DNA of 33,785 nt. Source: Deltaproteobacteria bacterium (GTDB lineage: Bacteria > Myxococcota_A > Polyangia > JAAYKL01). The translations under genes were made by a program, and so were the position numbers. The stretch covers positions 1 through 33,785 of the forward strand of contig JAUVDV010000058.1 in assembly GCA_030595125.1 (NCBI GenBank), in the 5' to 3' direction. Numbering within the stretch: the stretch's first letter is position 1; each line of letters begins with the position of its first letter. Positions 11,198 to 30,154 of this stretch are shown here, piece by piece. The notes under the pieces were generated by a model. That model searched no databases. It had not been told where the DNA came from and saw only the letters and a program-made list of their open reading frames with translations.

Positions 11198-14100
11198 TCA
11201 GGTGCCGATACTCTCGGCTCGGTTCACGATACGAGGCGTAATGAAGATCAGCATCTCAGAACGCCTGTCCGAATCGGAGCGGCTCTTGAACAGCCACCCG
11301 AGAATCGGGATGTCTCCAAAGAACGGAACCTTCTTGTAGCTCGTACCGTGGTTCCGCGTATAGATTCCGCCGATAACCGCTGTATGGCCGTCCGCCACGA
11401 GCAGCTCCGTATCCGCTTCACGCTTGAGGATCGTGGGATCACCGCGAGCGCCCTTGTTGTTGAAATCGGGTTCGTCCCTGGTCATCTTGATCTTCAGGAG
11501 CACCGATCCGTCGGCGGTCACGTGGGGCGTGACGGTGAGGTTCAGCTTGGCTTCCTTGAAAGCAGTCTGGATACCCTGCGCGGATATTCGGCTGTACGGG
11601 ATGAGTGTGCCCTGCTCGATGTGAGCCTGGCGGTTGTCCAGGGTCAGGATCTTCGGCGAACTCAGGATTCTCAGGGTACCCTCTTCTTCCATCGCCGAAA
11701 GCCTCAGGTTGAGGTTTGCGTTGTTGGCGATGGAGCCCAGGGTGATACCGAGTGCACCACCGGACCCGGTGCCCGCCGCTGCGGGCAGGTTGACCGCGAA
11801 GTTGGGATTGGGTCGTCCGCCCGCCACCGGGCTGAGACCGCCCACCGGCGTCTGGTTGTCGGTTGCGCCACCGGCCACGCCGACGGTGCTGGGGAACGCG
11901 AGACCTGTGGGGTTGGCGGTGGCCGCGCTGGCCGAGAAGTCGCCGCCCCACTGAATACCGATCTCGCGGGCGTATGTGCTGGAAGCCTCTACTATGCGGC
12001 CCTCTATCAGGACCTGCGGGGTCTGGGTATCCAGGTTGCGGATAAGTGCCTCTATCTGATCCAGGTTGGACACGGTATCCCGAGCGATGATTACATTCGT
12101 TCGGCTATCCACAGAGAGCTTCCCGCGATCGGAGAGCAGATCGTCCGCCCGGGGCTGCAGCTCTCCTGCCTGGGCGTAGGATACCGGGATGAGGCGCGTC
12201 TCGAGTGGCTCCAGGGCCTTGCTCTGCTTGCGCCTTGCGATCTCCATTTCCCGCTCCTTTTCGAGAGTTGCCAGGGGCGCCACTCGAATCAGGTTGCCAT
12301 CGCGCACCATGCCAAGCTTCTTGGCCATCAGGATGACGTCCAGCGCCTGATCCCACGGCACGTTTCGCATCCTGATGGTGACCGATCCGCTCACGTCGTC
12401 AGCGGTGACGATGTTCACATGACCCACATCTGAAAGGAGTCTCAGAATGTTGTGTATATCCGCATCCTTGAAATCGAGGTCAATTTTGCGACCTGTGAAT
12501 TTCTTCTTTTTGAATTTCTTCTTCTTGAGCTTGACCGCGTATGCCGCCGTGCGGTCCATGGGATAATCGTATGCGCTCGCGTCCTCGCGATCGATGGTTT
12601 TGGAGTTGGCTCCCAGCGGGGTGATCTTCTTGTCCTTGACCTCGGGCTTCCTGGAGTTGGCGGTAAAGATCCACTCGATGGTATTGCCGTCTTGTCGGAC
12701 AATGTTCTTCGCCGTCTTGCCCAGCGCTACTTCGAATTTTACGTCATCGCCGACCTTATATGAGCTGATGCGATCGATGGCGCCTCCGAAGTCGGTCACA
12801 TCGAGAGTGCGCTCCAGCAATGGACCAAGATCGGTGCCGTTGAGCACCAGCGCGGCTTTCTTCTTCCCGTTTTTGGATTGCTCGATTTTTATGTCGCTGT
12901 TTGTGGAAATCAGGATCTTCTGTACCGAACCCTCGTTCACGAAACGGATATCCGTTACTGCGGAGGCGACGGTTGCAGATTTCTTGCTGTCCTGCGAGGC
13001 GGCCGTCTTGTCCCAACCGCGCATCTGCGCCAGACGCAGCAACCTGAGATCCTCCTGCGTCATACTCTTGTTGCCCGCAGCCTTGACCCTCGCATTTTCT
13101 GCTCTCATGCGGGTCTCGCGCAACGTGCTTATCTCCTTCTTCTGGTCCGCTATTGTGCTGTTGGCTTTCGAAAGCTCGGTGTTCGCGGCAAGAATGCGCT
13201 CATCGCTGCCCTTCAGCTTGCGCTTTGTGTTTTTGAGATTGTCCTTCGCACGGGCAACGCGCCTGTCACGATCGGCAATCTCCTTCTTCGCGATTTCCAG
13301 TTCGGCTTTCGACCGGGTAACGAGTTCGTCGCGATCGGCAATCTCCTTTTTCGCGATCTCCAGTTCCGCTTTTGCCTGAGCGACGCGCTCGTCACGGGCC
13401 TTCAGCTTGCGTCGTGCGCTTTTGAGATCGTCCTTCGCACGGGTAACGCGCCTGTCGCGATCGGCAACCTCTTTATTCGCGATCTCCAACTCCGACCTGG
13501 ACAGGGCATTACGTGAATCGCTGTTCTTTAACTTGCGCTTGACGCTCCAGAGATCCTTCTTCGCACTGGTAACGCGCTTTTCGTGTTCGGTAATCGCCTT
13601 TTTGGCGATCTCCAGCTCCGCTTTCGCCTGGGTGACGCGCTCGTCGCTGCCCTTCAGCTTGTGCTTTGCGCTTTTCAGATCATCCTTGGCGCGGGCAACG
13701 CTATTGTCGCGATCGGTGATCTTCTTGCGAGCGTTTGCCAGCTCCGCCTTCGACAGGGCAACACGATTGTCGCGATCGGCAATTTCCTTCTTTGCAATCT
13801 TCAGTTCCGTTTTGGACAGGGCAACACGCTTGTTACTATCTTCAAGCTTGCTCCTTGTGTTCTCGAGATCAGCTTTCGCCACCGCAGCCATCCTGCTCAC
13901 TCGCCGGGCCCGTGACTTGGCCACGCGGATTTCGCGCTCGGAGAAAGCCAGCTTGTCCTCCAACGTCGAGACCACGTCGTTGGCCTTTGCGATTCGGCCC
14001 TCGAGATCCCTGAATTTCTTCTCGGATTCGCTACGCGCCTTTTGCGCCTTTGCCATTCTCTCGATAGCAGCGGCGACCTTCTCGGATGCCTTGGCATCCG

Positions 14101-19310: not shown

Positions 19311-22300
19311 TTATCGGGATTCGCTTCCGTCGATCAAGCCCATTTTTTTGAGTCTCCTGTAGAACGTCCTGCGCGGGATGCCTAATTTCTTCGCCGCTTT
19401 GGAACGGTTCCACTGGCACTCCTCGAGCATTTCGACAATACGCCTTTCCTCGTCGACCCCGACGGGCTCCGATCGATTCTCTCGCCGCGCCACAACAGCA
19501 ACCTCGTCGTCGAATAGAAGTTCGGGGGTCAATATGCCGCTACCGTCGGAAACGACAATGGCCCGTCTGATTACCTGCTCGAGCTCCCTGATGTTGCCCG
19601 GCCACGGGCGCCCTATCATTGCGTTCACCGCTTCGGGCGATAGATCGTGATGATCCCGATCCATGCGTTCGCATTCACGGCTGAGTATGCGCCGGGCCAG
19701 GATCGGAATATCCTCTTCTCGCTCGCGAAGTGGGGGAATATCCACGCTGAGAACCTGAAGACGATAAAACAGATCCTCTCGAAGAAGGCCCCGTTCCACC
19801 AGTATCTCCGGGCTCTCCCGGGTAGATGCGATCAATCTGAAGTCCGTCTTCAAGGATGCGGATCCGCCAACGGGTGTGAAACAACCCTCCTGCAGAACCC
19901 GGAGAAGGTCTACCTGCATTCTCGCCGGCATCTCGCCGATGTCGTCGAGATACAAGGTACCTCCGCTTGCGGTGATGAGCAGTCCGGGGCGCTCGCTGTC
20001 AGCTCCGGAGAAGGCGCCCCTGGTGTGTCCGAAAAGAGTTGCCTCCACGAGGTTCTCGGGCATGCCCCCGCATGACACGGGTACAAACGGCCCCTCTCGT
20101 CGGTCACCCACATCGTGAAGAACCCTGGCCATGAGGTCCTTCCCGGTTCCGCTCTCGCCCACGAATATCACCGGGACGTCGAGATTTTTCACCCGTTCGA
20201 TCAGCTCGAATACTGCGCGCATGGCGCTTGTTGAGCCGATCACCCCATGGTAATCGCCCGATCCTTCTATTCTCCGGCGCACTCGTTCGAGGCGCTCTTC
20301 CACCAGTTTGAGATCCGTGCTTCGGGATTTCAGGTCCATGTCCTGGCGCGCGACCATCCCCTCCAGAGCGCGAGTCGTTTCCTCCAGATCCGCGCCGCGC
20401 GTCCTGGCCTCGTCGAGTAGCTTCGCCTGGGATATGGCGATGGCGACCTGGTCCGAGAACGCACCGAGGACGCGGAGATCTTTGCCGCCGAAGCGCCCGC
20501 GTCGCAGGCGGTTCTCGAGATAGAGCACTCCGAAATCCGATCCCCTGTACGTGATTGGAACGCACGCGACGGAACGAATCTTCAGCGCGTGGATCGAGAG
20601 AAACTCATTGAAACGATCATCGCCCTCCGCATCCACGGTGACCACCGCCTCACCATCGAGGTACACCGATTCGGCGATGGAGCGACTGAACTGCTCGTGG
20701 GGATCCCGGGCGTCCCCCTGGCCCACCTCGCGCGCCGCGCGCACCTCGAGAACCCCCTCCGTCGGCATCAGCACGAATCCGCGTTCTGCGCCGGTCAGTT
20801 CCACCGCGGCATCCAGGATAGCCTCCATGAGGTGATCGAGGTCCGTCTCCGTGGCAAGGCGCTTGTTGAACTCGAGCACCCGGTAGAGTGCCACCGCCTC
20901 GGCATCGAGATCATCACCTCCATGGCCCATGGAAGCCGCTGCGATTCGCGACAGGCCGGATGATGGTACCGTCGTGGCCAGAAGGCGTCGCACCTCCACT
21001 CGCCGGACGTCCTGCCAGAAGGAGAGCCTGTGCGCGGACGGCAGTCCTGCGGCCAGCACTTCGAGGATCCGCTCCGCCTGCATGAGGTGCTTGCGGGCCG
21101 GTGCATTGGAGCCTCTTTTCAGCATCTGGGCGGCCACCGACAGGTGCGCCTGCCAGGCCAGATCCCGTCCGCCCTCCCGTTGCAGGCGAGCGATGAGAGT
21201 ATCGAGTTCGCCGACACCTTCCTCGAACTTGCCCGTCGCCATCTTGAGAGTACCGTTGGCAAGGGCGAACATCCCCTCGAATCGCCTCCCCCTGTCTTCC
21301 CGCTTTCTTAGTGCGGCGCGCTCGATCAGATCCGCGGCCAACGCCACGTCGGAATCTTCGCTGCGCCAGAGCCTCGTCTGGGCAGTTTCTAGCTCGATCT
21401 CGGAGCAAACTCCGTTCATCCCCATCCCGTCCAGGCCATCCCTGGCCTCCATCCATCGTTCTATCCCCTCGTCAATGCGGCCCTGCCAGGCGAGGAGATC
21501 CCCCTGAAACACCATGGCGCGCAACTCCAGTTCCCTCAGGTCCAGGACAGCCGCCTCCTCCCGGGCGCCCTCGAGAACCAGCGCCGCTCGCTCGAACCGC
21601 CCCACGGTGTTCAACGCGGCGCCCAGCCCGATGCGAACCTCGATGCCCTGGGCCGGGTTCGCCACCACCCCGGCGAGACGGCTAGCCTCCTCGTACTGTT
21701 GCAACGCCTGGCTCAGTCTCTCGGTCCACCAGTAGAGATCGCCGAGGATTTGCTGCGCTCGCATCAATCTCCTCATGTCTCCGATCTCTGCGTTCAGCGA
21801 CACCACGCGTTCGAGATCCTCGATGGCTCCATCGAGATCTCCGGACTGCTGCCGGGCCCATCCGAGCCTGTCCACGGCCAGGGCGAGGGTGCGCCTGTCC
21901 CCACTTTCGGTTGCCGCCTCGACAGCCTGTGTGCAGCGGGACAGCGCCTCGTTGTGCTTGCCCGCGAAGGTTGCGATCTTGCCCAGGACGCCCAGCAGGT
22001 CGGCCCTTACCCGGTGCCCCGGCGGTGTTTTTCCCAGCCCCTTCCGCGCCGTCTCGACGGCCGAAGAAACCTCTCCCGAGCGAAGGTTGACGTTGGCCAG
22101 TTCACCCAGGATCTTTGCCATATCCAGCGGCTCGCCCCCGATATCGAGAGCCTTTTTGAAACACTCACCGGCCTCGAAAAGCTCGCTGCGGAAAAAATGA
22201 ATGCGACCCAGGAGCGTGAGCGCGTCACGTCTCAACTCAGTGCTCGAAGCATTTGCCGGTCGTTCCAACAGCTCCAACGCTGCACGGTAGTTCCCACGGG

Positions 22301-24407
22301 CGGAAAGGATCCTTCCGAGGGCCAGTTGTACAAAGAGGGACTCATCGCTGTCGTCCAGAACAGGTCTGATCGCCTCGAGCAGATCCGTCGCCGCCGCGAG
22401 TGCTCCCATTTTCTCCAGCCGTCGAGCCACCTCGAGACCTCGCCCGCGCAGGGCATCGCTCTCTCCGCAGGCGGCCGCGTGCATCAACCCGCGCACCTCG
22501 TCTGTTTCCTCCTCCATCGCGCGACGGTGAAGCTCTAAGAGTTGTCCCGCAGGAATTCCTCCGAGCACCTTGAGAGCAAGAGGCGCCGTCGCCACGAACC
22601 ATCCGTCATCGCCGCGTCCCATCAGACCGGCCATATCGAGGCGCGCCGCCGTCATCGACAGGTCGGCCGCTTCCATTCCGGCAATACGCGCGAGGATTTC
22701 GTCGCGACCCGGGCGGCCGAGCACCGCGCTCGCCTCGAGGATCGCCCTCTCGCTCCGGGTCAGGGCGGTCATCCTGTTCATCCAGTACGCTTCCAGTGGC
22801 TGGGGAGGGCCGAGATCCTCCAGCCGCTCCAGGCCTCCTCCCGACGCGGCCAGATCCTCGATGACGGTGCTCACGAAAAGCGGATTTCCACCGGTATGGG
22901 CGAGCAACTTGTCCACCGCATGGTCCTGCGCCACGCCGAAATAGTCCTCGACGATCGATTTTACCTGCTCCCGGTGAAGCAACGGAAGCAGCACCGCGAA
23001 TCCACTCCCGAGATGCTCCTTCCAGGAAAACCCCGCCTCGGTGGTGACCATGAATGCCAGCTTTCCTGCCCCGGCCTGAGCGATGATTCCTCTGAGTACC
23101 TCCAGGGTCTCCGGCGACGCCCGGTCAACGTTGGAAATGACCACGAGGGCGGGTGTATCGCGTGACACCCGCGCGAGCAACGAGCCCACTGCTACGGACA
23201 GACCTCCCAGATCCGTATCGTCTCCGTCGGGGCGGTCCATGATGTCGAGGAGTCTCGACACCCGGGCAACAGCCTCCACGTCATCGGATACCAGGTCCAC
23301 CGCCTGCTCCATCAGCGCCGCCACCGGCGTGAGAAGGCCTCCTTCGCAGCGTGATTCCAACACGGCGACGCCGTTCAGTTGCGCCCGCCAGGTTATGACC
23401 TTTCCCACCGCGGCCCTTCCCGTTCCCAGCTCCCCCTCAACCACGTGCAGCGCCGGATGCTCTGACGGGTTTGCCAGGCGCCCGTCCATCGACGCCTGCA
23501 ACCTGAGCACCTCCTGATCGCGACCGACCGCAGCTGCCTGTATGGGAATCGCCGGTACCGTGTCGGCTTCGATCCCGCTAGGGCAAAGCGTGACGAGAGC
23601 AGCTTCCACTTCCTCGATATCCGGAAAACGCCGATCGGGATCCCGCTCCATCATCCGGCTCACCACCGCCTTCAGACCGCTCACCACCCGGGTCGAGTCA
23701 CCACTGCGGGTCCGTACTCTCTTTGCGTTCGGCGTGGGCCGTGAATCCCCGAGATGTCCCGATATGATTTCCTTGAGGGTTCCCTCGAAGGGAGGCACGC
23801 CGTCGATTATCTCGAAAAACGTTATACCCAGCGAATAGATATCGGATCGCACGTCCCCGGCGCCGCCCTCGATCGTTTCCGGGGCCATGTAATGAGCGGT
23901 TCCGGCCCCCTGCGCACCGTCGTCTTTTCTCCCGGCCGCCCTGACAAACGAGAAATCAATCAGGTGGGCTACGCCATTGGTCCCCAGGATGATATTCCCG
24001 GGCTTCAAGTCCCCGTGTAGCAATCCCCTCGCGTGGAGTGGCCGCAACGCCCGGCAGACCTCTACCGCCACGGAGATGATCTCCTGTGCGTCCATGTCGC
24101 CGGTCGCCTCCAACAGGTCAGAGCCATCGACGAAATCCCGTGTGAAAAACACACCGCCGTCCCCGGTGGTTCCAAAGTCGTACACCCGCGCCAGCCTCGG
24201 GTGCTTGAGGCCCGCGAGCACCTCGAACTCGTGCTTGAACAGATCTAGCCATTCTCGTTGCTCCCGGGGACGGAACACCTTGACGGCCACCTCGCGATCC
24301 CCGTGAAAACGATCGGACGCCAGGATCACATCCCCCTGAGCGCCAGTACCCAGCGAACGGATCATCCGGTACCGACGCCCGAGAACACCTGCGTTTTTTT
24401 GTTCCAT
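19311..24407 (-). CDS. Ser/Thr kinase - ATPase-like - TPR - GAF - sigma-54 activator fusion
   Basis: A 1698-residue regulator. Kinase, about 10-275: glycine loop GTGAQG (20-25), Lys43, HGDLKPGN (131-138), APE (175-177); the usual DFG is DFS (151-153). An AAA_16/STAND-like segment, about 290-680, has the Walker A region reading GELGTGRA, without the GK[S/T] core. TPR-like helices run to about 1150, then a GAF domain, about 1180-1325, and a coiled-coil linker. The sigma-54-contacting AAA+ domain, about 1389-1612, has Walker A GESGTGKD, loop GAFSGA (usually GAFTGA), Walker B LYLDDIGEM (usually DE) and arginine-finger segment LREDLFYRL. A Fis-type helix-turn-helix (RSKAAKKLGIPRRTFYRRLKK) ends the protein. 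Start at 24407 with GGGGGAG upstream. It probably activates sigma-54 promoters in response to a GAF or kinase signal; targets are unknown, the pil operon being the nearest. Confidence 0.92.
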   Translation of the reverse strand: MEQKNAGVLGRRYRMIRSLGTGAQGDVILASDRFHGDREVAVKVFRPREQREWLDLFKHEFEVLAGLKHPRLARVYDFGTTGDGGVFFTRDFVDGSDLLEATGDMDAQEIISVAVEVCRALRPLHARGLLHGDLKPGNIILGTNGVAHLIDFSFVRAAGRKDDGAQGAGTAHYMAPETIEGGAGDVRSDIYSLGITFFEIIDGVPPFEGTLKEIISGHLGDSRPTPNAKRVRTRSGDSTRVVSGLKAVVSRMMERDPDRRFPDIEEVEAALVTLCPSGIEADTVPAIPIQAAAVGRDQEVLRLQASMDGRLANPSEHPALHVVEGELGTGRAAVGKVITWRAQLNGVAVLESRCEGGLLTPVAALMEQAVDLVSDDVEAVARVSRLLDIMDRPDGDDTDLGGLSVAVGSLLARVSRDTPALVVISNVDRASPETLEVLRGIIAQAGAGKLAFMVTTEAGFSWKEHLGSGFAVLLPLLHREQVKSIVEDYFGVAQDHAVDKLLAHTGGNPLFVSTVIEDLAASGGGLERLEDLGPPQPLEAYWMNRMTALTRSERAILEASAVLGRPGRDEILARIAGMEAADLSMTAARLDMAGLMGRGDDGWFVATAPLALKVLGGIPAGQLLELHRRAMEEETDEVRGLMHAAACGESDALRGRGLEVARRLEKMGALAAATDLLEAIRPVLDDSDESLFVQLALGRILSARGNYRAALELLERPANASSTELRRDALTLLGRIHFFRSELFEAGECFKKALDIGGEPLDMAKILGELANVNLRSGEVSSAVETARKGLGKTPPGHRVRADLLGVLGKIATFAGKHNEALSRCTQAVEAATESGDRRTLALAVDRLGWARQQSGDLDGAIEDLERVVSLNAEIGDMRRLMRAQQILGDLYWWTERLSQALQQYEEASRLAGVVANPAQGIEVRIGLGAALNTVGRFERAALVLEGAREEAAVLDLRELELRAMVFQGDLLAWQGRIDEGIERWMEARDGLDGMGMNGVCSEIELETAQTRLWRSEDSDVALAADLIERAALRKREDRGRRFEGMFALANGTLKMATGKFEEGVGELDTLIARLQREGGRDLAWQAHLSVAAQMLKRGSNAPARKHLMQAERILEVLAAGLPSAHRLSFWQDVRRVEVRRLLATTVPSSGLSRIAAASMGHGGDDLDAEAVALYRVLEFNKRLATETDLDHLMEAILDAAVELTGAERGFVLMPTEGVLEVRAAREVGQGDARDPHEQFSRSIAESVYLDGEAVVTVDAEGDDRFNEFLSIHALKIRSVACVPITYRGSDFGVLYLENRLRRGRFGGKDLRVLGAFSDQVAIAISQAKLLDEARTRGADLEETTRALEGMVARQDMDLKSRSTDLKLVEERLERVRRRIEGSGDYHGVIGSTSAMRAVFELIERVKNLDVPVIFVGESGTGKDLMARVLHDVGDRREGPFVPVSCGGMPENLVEATLFGHTRGAFSGADSERPGLLITASGGTLYLDDIGEMPARMQVDLLRVLQEGCFTPVGGSASLKTDFRLIASTRESPEILVERGLLREDLFYRLQVLSVDIPPLREREEDIPILARRILSRECERMDRDHHDLSPEAVNAMIGRPWPGNIRELEQVIRRAIVVSDGSGILTPELLFDDEVAVVARRENRSEPVGVDEERRIVEMLEECQWNRSKAAKKLGIPRRTFYRRLKKMGLIDGSESR

Positions 24408-24443
24408 GATCTCCCCCGTTGACACAGTTAGTGCCAAAGTTGA

Positions 24444-24455
24444 GCCATTATGGCA
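24444..24455 (-). promoter_or_regulatory. Possible extended -10 promoter and palindrome before the kinase/activator
   Basis: On the minus strand TGcCATAAT (24455-24447) resembles an extended -10 element, about 40 bases before the start codon. It overlaps the palindrome GCCATTATGGC (24444-24454), which could be an operator. No -35 is convincing. Confidence 0.4.
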
Positions 24456-24496
24456 CACTTTTTCAGGATTTGCCCTCATAAAGGTGGGTTAAAGGT

Positions 24497-24543
24497 GGGG
24501 TCAGACACTTTTTAAAAGGGGGAAAAGGGGGTCAGACACTTTT
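24497..24543. repeat. Direct repeat GGGGTCAGACACTTTT, REP-like
   Basis: Two copies of GGGGTCAGACACTTTT, at 24497-24512 and 24528-24543, 31 bases apart, joined by purine-rich sequence, with partial AGGTGGG copies before them. Short GGGGTCAGAC-type repeats occur widely in environmental genomes, often near REP-associated (Y1) transposase genes. No transposase is present here. Confidence 0.55.
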
Positions 24544-24560: not shown

Positions 24561-25520
24561 CTAAAACGTCAATGCCATGGTCAGGCCGGGGACGGTTTTG
24601 CCGGATGGTGTTCGCATGGGGGTGGGCGCTATCGCGATGGTAGGTTTCTTCTTCTGCTGGTGGCGCAGGTTCATTTTGTCCGCAGCCCTTCCCACGAGGC
24701 CCGCATCAATTAGGGTCAGTGTGAGAGTGATGGTCGCGCTGATGAAACCCAACACAACGAAAGTGCGCGGGGTGGTGGTGTCATGACCACAGGAGGGGTC
24801 GTCAGCTTCACAGTGGTTAATGTCATTTATGACTACATAAGATTGTCCATGTGCATACAAAAAAAAGCCAGCTGTCGCGCCTCCCATCACCATGCGCCCG
24901 GCGGCCCAACCCCAACCGTGGGCGCGGCGGCCCAAATAGAAATACCCGGTGGAAGGACCGAAGACCAAACTGTGACTCGCGAGGACTATTCCAAACGCGA
25001 AAAGACCACCGCTATTGTTTTTTAACCCGATGATGGATAACACCGTGCCCACAGAGATCGGCAAGATAGAGAAACCCATAGATAGTCCCAGTGCGACACG
25101 GCGATTGTAACGGGTCTCCAGCACAACGAGTTCGAGACTATCTATTTTGACCGTGGGCTGTTTTCCACTCAGAGAGGCAAGGGGCGTTTCCAACAAATTG
25201 CGGGCCATGGTTCGGGCCTGCGCAGCGGCGGAGGCGGAGGTGACAATCCGGGTTTCTTCCAGGGTCTTTTTGCCCTCGCACACCAATTTCACCTGCAAAG
25301 AGATACCACCCGATATCATTTCCCCGTGGGCTCCCAAAACACATTCTCCCAGTTCATCGGTCGGTAAATCCGACACGAAAGTTCGAAGAGAAGCGTCGAT
25401 GTAGTTCGCGGTTTGAGCTGGAATATCCCCGCTACATTCCGAGGTTGAAACTGCGCCCATGGCCGTTTCGCAAATTGCCAGACAGGTCGTCGTCACGGCA
25501 ATAAAGAGAAAAGAACGCAT
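24561..25520 (-). CDS. Exported protein with C-terminal membrane helices, unknown
   Basis: A 319-residue protein: signal peptide at about 1-22 (SFLFIAVTTTCLAICETAMGA), a periplasmic segment of about 110 residues with few Cys, then about four to five hydrophobic helices (ALGLSMGFSILPISVGTVLSIIGL, GLFAFGIVLASHSLVFGPSTGYFYLG, GRMVMGGATAGFFLYAHG, TFVVLGFISATITLTLTLIDAGLVG) and a basic tail. This secreted-domain-plus-membrane layout is common among uncharacterised envelope proteins of Myxococcota-like genomes. The start has GAGGGGG upstream. It lies 35 bases downstream of the DUF5615 gene on the same strand and may share its transcript. No function can be assigned. Confidence 0.7.
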   Translation of the reverse strand: MRSFLFIAVTTTCLAICETAMGAVSTSECSGDIPAQTANYIDASLRTFVSDLPTDELGECVLGAHGEMISGGISLQVKLVCEGKKTLEETRIVTSASAAAQARTMARNLLETPLASLSGKQPTVKIDSLELVVLETRYNRRVALGLSMGFSILPISVGTVLSIIGLKNNSGGLFAFGIVLASHSLVFGPSTGYFYLGRRAHGWGWAAGRMVMGGATAGFFLYAHGQSYVVINDINHCEADDPSCGHDTTTPRTFVVLGFISATITLTLTLIDAGLVGRAADKMNLRHQQKKKPTIAIAPTPMRTPSGKTVPGLTMALTF

Positions 25521-25555: not shown

Positions 25556-25909
25556 TTATAAAGATCCCTCGCGGATCCTCACGCGGCCCGGCTGCGCTGT
25601 AACGATCGCACCTGCCAGCAGTTCCTTGCCGTAGTCCCTGAGCAGGCGCACGCAGATCGCGCCCTGTTGTTTCGCGCTGAAACCACCGAGGCGCACGATC
25701 CCCGAGTGCGGTAAAGCATGGACGATCATCAGCTCGCCGAAGTCCTTATCCAGTGTCACCAGGATGCGGCTCTCTCGATGGGCCTCAGCCAATATCTTCT
25801 CGTCCCCGGGGTCCTCATCCCAGCTCGTCACTGACACAACATCGTGCCCGGCCGCTGAGATTTCGGCGATCGCTCCACTCCAGATACAGCTGTCCAGGAG
25901 CAGCTTCAT
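25556..25909 (-). CDS. DUF5615 PIN-like protein, putative toxin
   Basis: A 117-residue protein matching the DUF5615 (Mut7-C-like PIN) pattern: an N-terminal MKLLLDSCIW with acidic Asp6, GHDVVSVTSWDEDPGDEKILAEAHRESRILVTLDKDFGEL in the middle, and GIVRL further on. Members are small putative RNases that pair with DUF433 partners. The start overlaps the stop of the DUF433 gene by four bases, the usual sign of a coupled toxin-antitoxin pair. 'LLDSC' in place of the common 'LLDEN' is a small variation; the acidic residues needed for a PIN-type site remain. Nuclease activity is inferred from the family. Confidence 0.85.
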   Translation of the reverse strand: MKLLLDSCIWSGAIAEISAAGHDVVSVTSWDEDPGDEKILAEAHRESRILVTLDKDFGELMIVHALPHSGIVRLGGFSAKQQGAICVRLLRDYGKELLAGAIVTAQPGRVRIREGSL

Positions 25910-26160
25910 GAACCTGTATCATCGAGCAGAGGCTCCACACGTTCGTGCCCGACCAGGCGCCGGGCGTAGACAAGGCAAGCCCGAATGTCCTCGATCTCGA
26001 GCCAGTCGTAGCCCGCGAGGATCGTTTCAGGTGAGTCTCCGGCGGCGAGCATGTCCAGCACGTGCTCCACCGCGAGCCTGCGGCCACGAATGATCGGCTT
26101 GCCGCCGAAAATTTTGGGGTTCACGGAGATCCGCGAAAGCAACTGGTTACCGTCAAGCAT
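25906..26160 (-). CDS. DUF433 protein, putative antitoxin
   Basis: An 84-residue protein of the DUF433 family, with the diagnostic RISVNPKIFGGKPIIRGRRLAVEHVLDMLAAGDSPETILAGYDWLEIEDIRACLVYA. This is a winged-helix-like fold regularly found just upstream of DUF5615 proteins and regarded as the antitoxin or DNA-binding partner. The start at 26160 is chosen for the GAGGAG site upstream; an in-frame ATG at 26187 would add nine residues. It lies directly downstream of the duplicated rsmB tail. Confidence 0.87.
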   Translation of the reverse strand: MLDGNQLLSRISVNPKIFGGKPIIRGRRLAVEHVLDMLAAGDSPETILAGYDWLEIEDIRACLVYARRLVGHERVEPLLDDTGS

Positions 26161-26233
26161 TTTTCTACTCCTCAAATCAGAGGTCAAGATACCGCTTCAC
26201 GACGATGATACCAGAAAGCTTCTATTGAAATAT

Positions 26234-26334
26234 GCCTTATTGCCTCGCGAGGCACGCGATGAAGTAGCCGTCGGTTCCGTGCGCGCTGGGATCGACGAAG
26301 GGCAGGCCGCCTCGCCATGGGATCGAGTCTGGCC
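26234..26334 (-). pseudogene. Duplicated 3' end of rsmB (remnant)
   Basis: 26247-26334 matches 27181-27268, the tail of rsmB, at 85 of 88 bases. In the rsmB frame it still reads PDSIPWRGGLPFVDPSAHG and then TDGYFIACLARQ before a TAA stop (26234-26236). One difference from the intact gene is silent (CCA/CCG) and one codon gives Ala instead of Val. The copy has no start and cannot make a protein. It lies on the far side of the DUF4405 gene from rsmB, 934 bases from its match, and its LARQ-stop ending looks more like the natural C-terminus of RsmB than the FSGC extension now present. Confidence 0.85.
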
Positions 26335-26346
26335 TCTACTGTGAGG

Positions 26347-27135
26347 TTACTTGCGCTCAAGCATCCGGAGCAGATCGTTGGGCAGCAGTCCGTACTTGTC
26401 GGCCAGAGTGCGAACGTTGTCACCCCTTGTGGCGGTGATACCCCGACTGCCGAGGATCTCGATCGCTCGATCCACTTCGATTCCCGCTCTCGCCGCGAGT
26501 TCGTCGACAGTCGCGCGGCTGAGACCGCGCCTTTGACCCCAGATCTGCTCCGTTCGACGGCGCTCACCTCGATCAGCACCCCGGCCGGTTCCCCAGCCCC
26601 CACGCCTGCCCATGCTCCGGTCCCGCGGTTTTGCATAGTCCTCGAGGTAGCGATCCTCGGCATGCGGAACGGGGGCGCGATTGACTTCGTGCTCCCAGGC
26701 AGCCTTGATCTCCTCCTCCGCCTCCATGATCGTCCCGAAGGGCGGAAGTCCGATGATGCTGGCGACTATGGCGAACACGCCGAGCACCAGCGTGGCGGTC
26801 AGTTCCCTGGAGATCCGGATCCTCTTCTGGAGTCGCGATCGGCAGTACGTCCAGAACGGACGCCAGTTGACGACCAGATGGAAGACCATGATGACCAGAA
26901 AAATCAGGCTTGCGTTCACGTGCACCGACTGCCACTGATCTTTATTCAGACCCAGGAGCCGCCACCCCGTCCAGTGGGCGACCCGGCCCTTCGGCGCAAT
27001 GTAGAGGACAGCTCCCGACACGAACAGGGCCAGGAAGAAGAACGCCGCCAACAGGGAAGTGAAATTCCTCCCCCGAAACCTCCGACCGGTGGAACCCGTG
27101 GTAGTCTCCTCGACCGTGTTGGATGAACAAATCAT
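26347..27135 (-). CDS. DUF4405 membrane protein (cytochrome b561-like fold)
   Basis: A 262-residue integral membrane protein. Helices: about 24-46, 71-91 (VHVNASLIFLVIMVFHLVVNWRPF) and 112-130 (TATLVLGVFAIVASIIGLPP). His54, His72 and His86 are placed as in DUF4405 proteins, where the H...H pattern suggests haem binding. The long cytoplasmic tail ends in a helical unit (LSRATVDELAARAGIEVDRAIEILGSRG, then TLADKYGLLPNDLLRML) often seen at the end of this family. The start at 27135 has AAGGAGG upstream. It is 23 bases downstream of rsmB and bracketed by the rsmB tail and its duplicate. A role in electron transfer is inferred from the family. Confidence 0.82.
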   Translation of the reverse strand: MICSSNTVEETTTGSTGRRFRGRNFTSLLAAFFFLALFVSGAVLYIAPKGRVAHWTGWRLLGLNKDQWQSVHVNASLIFLVIMVFHLVVNWRPFWTYCRSRLQKRIRISRELTATLVLGVFAIVASIIGLPPFGTIMEAEEEIKAAWEHEVNRAPVPHAEDRYLEDYAKPRDRSMGRRGGWGTGRGADRGERRRTEQIWGQRRGLSRATVDELAARAGIEVDRAIEILGSRGITATRGDNVRTLADKYGLLPNDLLRMLERK

Positions 27136-27158
27136 ATCTTCAGCCTCCTTGACCTTTT

Positions 27159-28496
27159 TTAGCAACCTGAAAATCGCCTGGCGAGGCACGCGATGAAGTA
27201 GCCGTCGGTTCCGTGGACGCTGGGATCGACGAAGGGCAGGCCGCCTCGCCACGGGATCGAGTCTGGCCACGTTGACGGAGGATCGCGGACGGGTTCGAAT
27301 CCGGGATGCTCCTCCAAAAATCTCTCGATCTGTTTTTCTCCCTCTTCTTTGAGAATCGAGCACACTGCGTATACGAGCCGTCCGCCCTCGGCTACGAGAG
27401 GCGCAACGCTATCAAGCATGGCGCGCTGAACACTCACGAGAGAGGCCACTTGATCCGGTGAAAGTCGCCAGCGGATCTCGGGTCGCCTGCCCAGGGTTCC
27501 GGTCCCGGAGCACGGCACGTCGAGAAGGATCCTGTCGAACGGGCCCTCCAAGGCCCCTTTGCCCGCCTGGAGATCCACCACAACGGTGTTCGCTGAAAAC
27601 CCCTGGCGGTTCAACTCGAAGGCCGCGCGATCGAGCTTGCTCCGGCTGCGATCTGCAGCTGTGATTTCGGCCCTGTCGCCGGCGAGCATCGCGATGGTCC
27701 CGGTTTTGCCGCCCCTCCCCGCGCACGCGTCGAGAACCTTTGATTCTGGTTTGGGGTCGAGGGCCGCAACGACCAGTCCCGCCCCCTCGTCCTGATACGC
27801 GGCGAGCCCCTCTTCTTCGATCGTTCTCCCGTCGCGCCGGTCGCTAACGTTGATTGACCACGGCAGGCAGGGGCCCGGCGACGCACTGTCTGAAAGTCTC
27901 TTGAGGAGATCGGCTCTTGTGATCCGCGATGTGTTGACTCTCATGGTGCGTGCGGATCTGTCGTTGAAGATGCGGGCGATGGCCAGCGCTTCTTTTGTTC
28001 CCCGATCGTCGATCCACCGGGCGAGCAACCATCCGGGAAGCCCGTAACGCAGGGCCAGTTCTTCCACTGAAGCGCCGTCGTCGTCCGCAGGAGGCCGCAG
28101 GGCATCGGGTTCCCTTGCTGCCAGATTCCGAAGCAGCGCGTTCGCCAGCCCGGAGAGCCTCGGTGCAGCAGAACGTTTGACGGAGGACACGGCCTCGAAA
28201 ACCGCCGCCCTCACGGGGATTCGATCCAGATAGGCTATCTGGTACGCCCCTATACGGAGGATGTTGCGCACGGTGACGTCGAGCTTGCGGAGGCTTCCCC
28301 CCGACGAGGCCGAATCGAGAAGATGGTCGAGCCACGGGCGTCGTCGAAGGACGCCGAGAACCAGCTCGGTTGCGAGCGAGGAATCCCGTTGGTCTTTCAG
28401 GGTTGCCGCCTCGGATTCGAGAACCGCCGCCGCGAAGGCCCCGTCCCGCTCCACGCGGTCGAGCACCTTGCGCGCAACATCTCGAGCCGAAGCCAT
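27159..28496 (-). CDS. rsmB: 16S rRNA (cytosine-967-C5) methyltransferase RsmB
   Basis: RsmB methylates C967 of 16S rRNA using S-adenosylmethionine. The 445-residue protein has the N-terminal NusB-like RNA-binding domain (about 1-150; RNILRIGAYQIAYLDRIP), the SAM-binding motif LDACAGRGGKT, motif IV DVPCSGTGTLGRRPEIRWR with its Cys near 328, and motif VI YAVCSIL with the catalytic Cys near 377. Motif VI more often reads YATCS. The last residues FSGC replace the expected short end, because the 3' end appears to have been rebuilt by the event that placed the DUF4405 gene here. The ATG is two bases after the rseP stop, so the two genes are probably cotranscribed. Confidence 0.95.
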   Translation of the reverse strand: MASARDVARKVLDRVERDGAFAAAVLESEAATLKDQRDSSLATELVLGVLRRRPWLDHLLDSASSGGSLRKLDVTVRNILRIGAYQIAYLDRIPVRAAVFEAVSSVKRSAAPRLSGLANALLRNLAAREPDALRPPADDDGASVEELALRYGLPGWLLARWIDDRGTKEALAIARIFNDRSARTMRVNTSRITRADLLKRLSDSASPGPCLPWSINVSDRRDGRTIEEEGLAAYQDEGAGLVVAALDPKPESKVLDACAGRGGKTGTIAMLAGDRAEITAADRSRSKLDRAAFELNRQGFSANTVVVDLQAGKGALEGPFDRILLDVPCSGTGTLGRRPEIRWRLSPDQVASLVSVQRAMLDSVAPLVAEGGRLVYAVCSILKEEGEKQIERFLEEHPGFEPVRDPPSTWPDSIPWRGGLPFVDPSVHGTDGYFIACLARRFSGC

Positions 28497-28498
28497 CT

Positions 28499-30154
28499 CT
28501 ATCCGACGATCAGTCGCGAGATGTCGTTCCAGGTCGCAAAAAGCATCAGCATTACGATCATCGCCAACCCCACGACCATGACGCGCTCCTTGATCCGGAG
28601 ACTCACCGGCTTGCGAATGATCCCCTCCACGGCAATGAAGATCAGCTGGCCCCCGTCGAGCACAGGGATGGGAAGCAGGTTGAGGAAGCCCAGGTTCAGG
28701 CTGATGAGCGCCATCATCCAGAAGAAACTCGACGGCCCCTGCTCCCCCGCCATCCCGGCGAGTTGGCCGATCATGATGGGACCGCCGATGCTGCGCATGG
28801 ATACCTCGCCGCGAAACAGGAGCTTGAAACCGATGCCGATCATGCGAATTCCGGCCCAGGTTTCATCTTTCGAGTAGCGCCACGCGCTCGAGATGAGCGA
28901 CGGGTTGGAGATCTTTTTCATGGGGTCGGTCTGCGCGTAGGTCTCGAACCCCTTGTCGTACACGTCCCGTGCTATTCCCAGATCCTTGGCCTCCCCGGCG
29001 GGAATGAAGCGGGGCTTGAAAGAGGCCTTCATCCGCTGCGCTTTGCGGTCCCACTCCAGCACCCTGGCCTCGCCGGGTTTCTTGTAGACGGCCGACGATA
29101 TCTGACCCAGGCCCAGGCTAAGGCCCCCGTATGAGATGAGACGATCTCCCCTCTTCAGGCCTATCTCGGCAGCGGCGCCCTTGGGATCCACATAGGCCAC
29201 GAAGTCGGTGCTGCAGGTAAGCCCCACGTCATCGAGAGAGGAAACGTGCGCGGGGATCGGGAGGGTGATCTTGAGGGGTTCCGCCGACTCGTCGTAAGGG
29301 AGTGGGGATTTTGGGCTGAAGTCGGCTCTCATGCGTCTGACCGAGAGAGTTACGGTCTTTCCCCTGGAAGCGACGATGGCGTTTTCCAGATCCTTGAGGC
29401 GTTTCACCTCTTGTTTGTTCACGGCGACGATCATGTCGAATGTCTCGAGGCCCGCTCTGGCGCCGGGGCCGTCGAGATCGGTCACGCCCACGGTGGAAGT
29501 CAGGTAGCTCCTTCCCACGCCGATCCGGCCTATGGTCTCCTTCTCCGAGAGCACCACCGTGGCCTCGATGGATTCGGGGGCGATATCGCGCTCCAGGATC
29601 TCGCCGTCCCGATCGATCTTGAATCGAAGCGTGACATCGGGGTTGGGCGCAACGATCGCCACCATCTCATCGAAGGTATTCACATCGTCGCCCTCGATGG
29701 AGACGATCCGATCTCCCGCACGCAGACCGGCTGCGGCTGCCGGGCTGTCCGGGATGACGAAGCCCACATCCGACGGCAGGACATCGGTCATGGTGAGCCC
29801 CACTCCGAAGTGCAAAATGAGTGGGAAGATCAGGTTCATCACCGGCCCGCCGACGATGATCAAGAAACGTTGCCACAGTGGCTTATCGGTGAAGGCGCGG
29901 CCGCGATCTTCGTCCCCAATTTCCTCGGTGGGGTCCTCTCCGAGCATCTTGACGTATCCCCCGATGGGCACCGCGGAGATCTTGTACAGAGTCTCTCCCT
30001 TGCGAAAACCCAGGAGCTTCGGCCCGAAGCCCAGGGAGAACGTGTGCACCTTTACCTTGAACAACTTGGCCATCACGAAGTGACCGCCCTCGTGGATGAA
30101 CACGAGCACACCGATCAGGATAATGAAATATAGTGCGTAGGAAACAACTGTCAT
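28499..30154 (-). CDS. rseP: Site-2 membrane metalloprotease RseP, with three PDZ-like domains
   Basis: RseP cuts membrane-embedded proteins, classically the anti-sigma factor RseA, after a first cut by another protease. The zinc motif is HEGGH at 21-25 in the first helix and the second metal motif is VLDGGQLIF near 500. PDZ-like segments: DSPAAAAGLRAGDRIVSIEG, then GPGARAGLETFDMIVAVNKQEV, then PKGAAAEIGLKRGDRLISYGG, so there appear to be three rather than the two of E. coli, which explains 551 rather than about 450 residues. HEGGH rather than HELGH or HEFGH is a small variant. It is divergent from pyrG. The usual neighbours dxr and cdsA are not seen here. Confidence 0.94.
   Translation of the reverse strand: MTVVSYALYFIILIGVLVFIHEGGHFVMAKLFKVKVHTFSLGFGPKLLGFRKGETLYKISAVPIGGYVKMLGEDPTEEIGDEDRGRAFTDKPLWQRFLIIVGGPVMNLIFPLILHFGVGLTMTDVLPSDVGFVIPDSPAAAAGLRAGDRIVSIEGDDVNTFDEMVAIVAPNPDVTLRFKIDRDGEILERDIAPESIEATVVLSEKETIGRIGVGRSYLTSTVGVTDLDGPGARAGLETFDMIVAVNKQEVKRLKDLENAIVASRGKTVTLSVRRMRADFSPKSPLPYDESAEPLKITLPIPAHVSSLDDVGLTCSTDFVAYVDPKGAAAEIGLKRGDRLISYGGLSLGLGQISSAVYKKPGEARVLEWDRKAQRMKASFKPRFIPAGEAKDLGIARDVYDKGFETYAQTDPMKKISNPSLISSAWRYSKDETWAGIRMIGIGFKLLFRGEVSMRSIGGPIMIGQLAGMAGEQGPSSFFWMMALISLNLGFLNLLPIPVLDGGQLIFIAVEGIIRKPVSLRIKERVMVVGLAMIVMLMLFATWNDISRLIVG

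Follow-up and report, generated by a model that had tools for sequence, protein, structure and literature searches.

A DUF4405 gene downstream of rsmB in this deltaproteobacterial genome is bracketed by two copies of the rsmB 3' end, and we regard the arrangement as most likely the scar of a gene gained through ordinary recombination, real but unremarkable. The reading we lean towards, with some confidence, is that a piece of about 0.93 kb, made up of an rsmB 3' end and the DUF4405 gene, came from a close relative and recombined into the resident rsmB. This reading builds on four observations: the repeat, its junctions, the layout in a congener and the low synonymous divergence of the DUF4405 gene.

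A direct repeat of the rsmB 3' end brackets the DUF4405 gene

The window, i.e. the whole stretch of DNA that was analysed (33,785 bp), comprises the entire contig C71; the genome, 5.39 Mb in 203 contigs, is 95% complete. On the minus strand the locus runs in the order rseP, rsmB, DUF4405, second rsmB tail, DUF433, DUF5615, a 319-aa gene and a kinase/sigma-54 activator gene (Table 1). According to an earlier note on this DNA, 88 bases of the rsmB 3' end recur 934 bases away in the same orientation with 85 matches. Realignment proved this exact and extended the match to 91 of 96 bases (95%), with unchanged spacing. The 88-base core holds three mismatches, at positions 17, 52 and 53 in gene orientation, the 8 further bases add two, and the longest identical runs in the tail alignment are about 35 bp. 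In a search of the genome itself the repeat gave E = 3.5e-36, which is far beyond chance, and neither tail had any further match in the whole genome. The only other direct repeat of at least 40 bp in the window was a coding repeat at 13.2-13.9 kb, consisting of 63/126-bp tandem repeats (13196-13879) within a 1428-aa AMIN/secretin (PilQ-like) gene.

Table 1. Features of the rsmB-DUF4405 locus (positions in the window).
Feature	Position	Strand	Evidence or remark
rseP	28499-30154	-	
rsmB, 16S rRNA m5C967 methyltransferase, 445 aa, LARRFSGC end	27159-28496	-	Pfam NusB + Methyltr_RsmB-F; NCBIfam RsmB equivalogs; 91% aa identity to G002
rsmB repeat copy within the 3' end of the working gene ('own' tail)	27173-27268	-	Repeat search and alignment
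DUF4405 gene, 262 aa, putative membrane b-type cytochrome	26347-27135	-	PF14358, 7.5e-17; common to G002 at low synonymous divergence
Novel junction: last DUF4405 codons and stop, plus 12 bp	26335-26356	-	Matches neither G002 nor rsmB upstream of the tail
Displaced second rsmB tail copy, in frame, LARQ-stop; stop codon just below the 26239 region	26239-26334	-	Repeat search and alignment
DUF433 protein, likely antitoxin	25906-26187	-	PF04255, 7.3e-22; absent here in G002
DUF5615 PIN-like protein, likely toxin partner	25556-25909	-	PF18480, 2.2e-17
319-aa protein, member of a small paralogous family in its own genome	24561-25520	-	No Pfam match
Ser/Thr kinase - TPR - GAF - sigma-54 activator fusion	19311-24479	-	Next gene common to G002

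The displaced tail corresponds to the last ~31 codons of rsmB and translates to PDSIPWRGGLPFVDPSAHGTDGYFIACLARQ followed by a stop, in agreement with the in-frame LARQ-stop end noticed earlier. RNA structure was rejected as a reason for the retention of this tail, as both copies fold no better than shuffled sequences (z of 0.8 and 0.5). In relatives RsmB mostly ends 8-11 residues past the DGY motif, with both 8 and 12 in use. The LARQ end is typical in this respect (8 residues), the FSGC end of the working gene is slightly long (12), and the congener G002 likewise ends 12 residues after DGY (RFPGS), so that both LARQ and FSGC are viable RsmB ends. The opinion that LARQ is the more natural end thus stands insofar as it lies within the usual range, but the length of the FSGC end is matched in G002, and the idea that LARQ proves the original end was rejected in view of the tail lengths used by relatives.

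The locus in related genomes

The family sample comprised 14 genomes, two of which (G001 and G002) belong to the same genus as ours; G002 is Deltaproteobacteria bacterium CSMAG_2956 (public contig JAUXHN010000028.1). There, rseP, rsmB and DUF4405 are found in the same order and with the same spacing, their proteins being 91-94% identical to ours, and no second rsmB tail was found at the locus. Because G002 has DUF4405 behind rsmB at this spacing, the adjacency is not unique to our genome, and because it lacks the second tail, the bracketed layout is not the state of the only comparable relative, which is the outcome of the comparison with close relatives that the earlier note had proposed. In G001 both flanks match, and the contigs break off within rsmB, at codon 189, and within the kinase gene, leaving a gap exactly at the site. 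The site is consequently occupied without a second repeat in G002 and falls into a contig gap in G001, and the DUF4405 gene is absent from the other genera of the 14-genome sample. No relative was found in which rsmB with a LARQ end and without DUF4405 runs into DUF433, the congeners compared being G002 and, with its gap at the site, G001.

Beyond DUF4405, G002 has a small membrane-protein ORF and a DUF2225-like gene, followed by the same kinase gene. The DNA from DUF4405 to the kinase is wholly different between the two genomes and must therefore have been rearranged in at least one of them; apart from pieces of the paralogous 319-aa gene, neither spacer was detected elsewhere in the other genome at the DNA level. 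Judged by family alone, DUF433 and DUF5615 resemble a toxin-antitoxin pair. The family member G006 has a 70% identical pair (compared with 25556-26187) at a different place, which suggests a module that moves. Two partial paralogues of the 319-aa gene are present elsewhere in its genome; its N-terminal third (25184-25520) shows 79-83% DNA identity to these loci, on contigs C55 and C151, and the remainder diverges, a pattern indicative of a paralogous family whose front is conserved and whose back varies. Just upstream of the kinase gene, where the homology to G002 ends, there are two copies of GTCAGACACTTTT 31 bp apart (24500-24543). Six copies were counted in the whole genome, two in G002, where the sequence also occurs upstream of the kinase, and none in G006 or G007. 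A RAYT/REP element at this boundary was considered and dropped, since no HUH-transposase-like gene was recognised by eye near the other sites. The kinase gene itself encodes an unusual 1722-aa fusion of a protein kinase, a TPR region, a GAF domain, a sigma-54 activator and a Fis-type HTH.

The DUF4405 gene is less diverged at synonymous sites than its neighbours

Synonymous divergence (dS) between our genome and G002 was 0.098 for DUF4405, versus 0.335 for rsmB, 0.306 for the kinase gene and 0.241 for rseP, and the synonymous differences of DUF4405 departed from those of the three neighbours with Fisher p values of 2e-7, 7e-8 and 3e-4, respectively. At four-fold sites its divergence (0.057) was the lowest among 89 windows of 262 codons taken from this and a second locus (median 0.19), a list that includes a few spurious antisense ORFs left out of the argument. 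Differences at codon positions 1, 2 and 3 numbered 16, 7 and 20 in DUF4405 and 26, 22 and 96 in rsmB; DUF4405 thus appears to combine few third-position changes with weak constraint on its C-terminal half. The change-point in divergence was placed at 27130-27332, which includes the own tail, with a gain of 10.7 log units that only 2 of 5000 codon shuffles reached. Raw nucleotide identity was abandoned as evidence of transfer, as the value for DUF4405 (94.7%) was barely above that of the best control window (94.6%) and synonymous sites alone stand out. Divergence also varies in the rseP 3' end and in other genes. The rsmB 5' end together with the rseP 3' end (28116-29004) shows raised identity to G002 (~94.5%), possibly owing to another local exchange or just to constraint.

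The low synonymous divergence points to a younger common ancestor for the DUF4405 stretch than for the flanking genes, and hence to movement of the gene between both lineages, or into both, after their split. In samples from the class (318 genomes) and the phylum (379 genomes), genes of this DUF4405 type were found in our genome and G002 alone, the next matches having at most 39% identity. Such weak matches in the rest of the class sample, together with the low dS, make DUF4405 look like the piece that came in. A product of recombination with foreign DNA, the reading we favour, was among the options that had been raised earlier.

DUF4405 proteins bind heme b and have been proposed to be membrane electron carriers (PMC11334425). 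In the present protein, a putative membrane b-type cytochrome, the Pfam domain covers positions 25-91, and a C-terminal extension is common to a paralogue. A defence function was discarded as no match was obtained with PADLOC, and so was a long antisense ORF (26317-27126, plus strand), the DUF4405 frame having both the Pfam match and full-length paralogues.

Age and mosaic structure of the two tails

Own tail and copy differ at 5 of 96 positions (dS 0.14, i.e. 3 differences over 23.5 sites), own tail and G002 tail at 9 of 96 (dS 0.30). Among the 12 sites that vary between the three tails, seven are unique to G002, three to the copy and two to the own tail. The duplication is probably younger than the species split and about as old as the transfer of DUF4405, an estimate from very few sites that unequal rates could mislead; as the own-copy dS is of the same order as that of DUF4405 (0.10), both would be compatible with one post-split event. 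The variable sites also form a mosaic, in that own tail and copy agree against G002 six times over positions 1-53, the own tail has the base of G002 and not that of the copy at positions 89 and 94, and position 86 shows the opposite. Such a pattern, here spread over only 12 variable sites, is what a crossover inside the tail would produce. The upstream tail of G002 differs from both of ours at 6 sites, so G002 itself is not the donor of the whole tail.

A probable recombination scar and its alternatives

According to the reading we favour, incoming DNA of ~0.93 kb that bore DUF4405 and ended within an rsmB tail would have met the resident rsmB. A crossover in or near the 96-bp tail would leave the upstream part of rsmB native and provide it with the donor's end (RFSGC, compare RFPGS in G002) and with DUF4405 behind. 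The old end of the recipient, LARQ-stop with DUF433/DUF5615 and the 319-aa gene after it, would be displaced to the far side of DUF4405 and persist there as a non-functional remnant of 96 bp. The direction of transfer, the donor, the LARQ copy as the older end and the route are here inferred from sequence. Only the distal copy has an in-frame, natural rsmB end, and the DNA that follows it is different; this supports DUF4405 as the likely incomer. It is also possible that an ancestral DUF4405 was later overwritten by homologous exchange, as G002 has DUF4405 at this spot too.

Two routes could lead to this picture. A circularised fragment could integrate by a single crossover, in which case the homologous stretch would stand as a direct repeat on both sides of the insert and no sequence would be lost; the order would then be native rsmB, donor end, DUF4405, ligation join (26335-26356), start of the other tail and the recipient's rsmB end. 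Alternatively, one-sided homologous recombination could be combined with illegitimate joining at the other end (homology-facilitated illegitimate recombination, HFIR). In E. coli, ligation or circularisation of incoming linear DNA followed by a single crossover is a main described fate (PMC3240628). Campbell-type integration of this kind resembles the present locus in that direct repeats of the homologous stretch flank the insert and the gene is rebuilt on one side, apparently with no loss, but the rsmB case is an ancient natural event, read from the DNA alone, with a fragment of ~0.93 kb. The flanking repeat is present here, and the ancestry of the insert differs from that of its flanks (dS 0.098 versus 0.24-0.34), as single-crossover integration expects. 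HFIR products usually carry a similarly sized deletion and microhomology of 3-10 bp (PMC3240628), and displaced 3' remnants formed by HFIR have been proposed for the T6SS immunity arrays of Vibrio cholerae (PMC5361080). Homology at one end, an illegitimate join at the other and displaced 3' remnants are shared with our locus, which nevertheless shows a duplication and not a deletion, and no obvious microhomology; its illegitimate junction is 22 bp that match neither parent, with no linked deletion seen. The type IV pilus genes of the window (PilM, PilN, PilO and secretin) are only suggestive and make DNA uptake thinkable at most.

The main competing history, which we consider possible but hardly probable, puts DUF4405 behind rsmB already in the genus ancestor. 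A tandem duplication of tail and DUF4405, followed by deletion or by another rearrangement bringing DUF433/DUF5615, would have left the second tail, and DUF4405 would have been exchanged separately between the species by homologous recombination. Such a history agrees with the equal spacing in G002, with the completely different spacer towards the kinase and with the two tails being nearer each other than to G002, but it takes two or three separate events, more than the transfer we favour, turns the in-frame stop of natural length after LARQ into a chance product of deletion, and offers no reason why tail copy and DUF4405 exchange should be about equally old. It is quite improbable that the tail copy instead came from a relative together with the DUF433/DUF5615/319-aa block, DUF4405 and rsmB being native. 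G002 indeed has no such block at this position, and in our genome the tail lies directly against it in its natural orientation, but the low synonymous divergence of DUF4405 would be left unexplained and the homologous pair in G006 is not beside an rsmB tail; co-travel of the tail was rejected since the G006 match starts well inside the module. An assembly artefact joining two strains is very improbable: the assembly is fragmented into 203 contigs and a single contig shows the junction, but the copies differ at 5 sites, the junction has no homology through which an assembler could join, and rsmB and DUF4405 are independently adjacent in G002.

A further reading, suggested earlier on account of the repeat and in our view unlikely, is a tiny mobile unit (or trimmed island) with site-specific targeting of the rsmB 3' end, the tails being its left and right attachment sites. 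It would explain the attL/attR-like layout, in which a gene-end repeat (91/96) flanks the insert and rsmB is intact, and the occupied site in G002. As the earlier note had remarked, DUF4405 is the sole cargo; no integrase, transposase or recombinase was detected among the Pfam-scanned ORFs of the window, though short ORFs or those outside the scan may still encode one, and no tRNA was found there. Moreover, the repeat is long (96 bp), its copies are not identical, and G002 lacks a second one. Nor did the search for the gene at other sites return a near-identical DUF4405 in the genome itself, in the family, class and phylum samples or on plasmids, where two Ruegeria matches at 29-30% were all that appeared. 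SGI1-type islands at the 3' ends of protein genes likewise restore and duplicate the end of their target, but the rsmB locus differs in the missing integrase, the single cargo gene and the longer, imperfect repeat, and in a literature search on island sites no paper with rsmB was among the matches listed. A dedicated mobile unit is not needed, because the scanned ORFs hold no integrase, transposase or tRNA. General recombination could remove the 934-bp unit at a low rate. There is no sign of programmed excision. It is unlikely, too, that in this genus small integrase-less units (here DUF4405) land recurrently at the rsmB 3' end and are swapped there between species, with a displaced tail as their footprint.

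As a single case, the rsmB scar changes little. It illustrates that a gene can slip in after a housekeeping gene with no dedicated mobile element involved. It also illustrates that such a scar, a displaced gene tail with a natural end, is legible in the sequence and can be dated by comparison with a congener.
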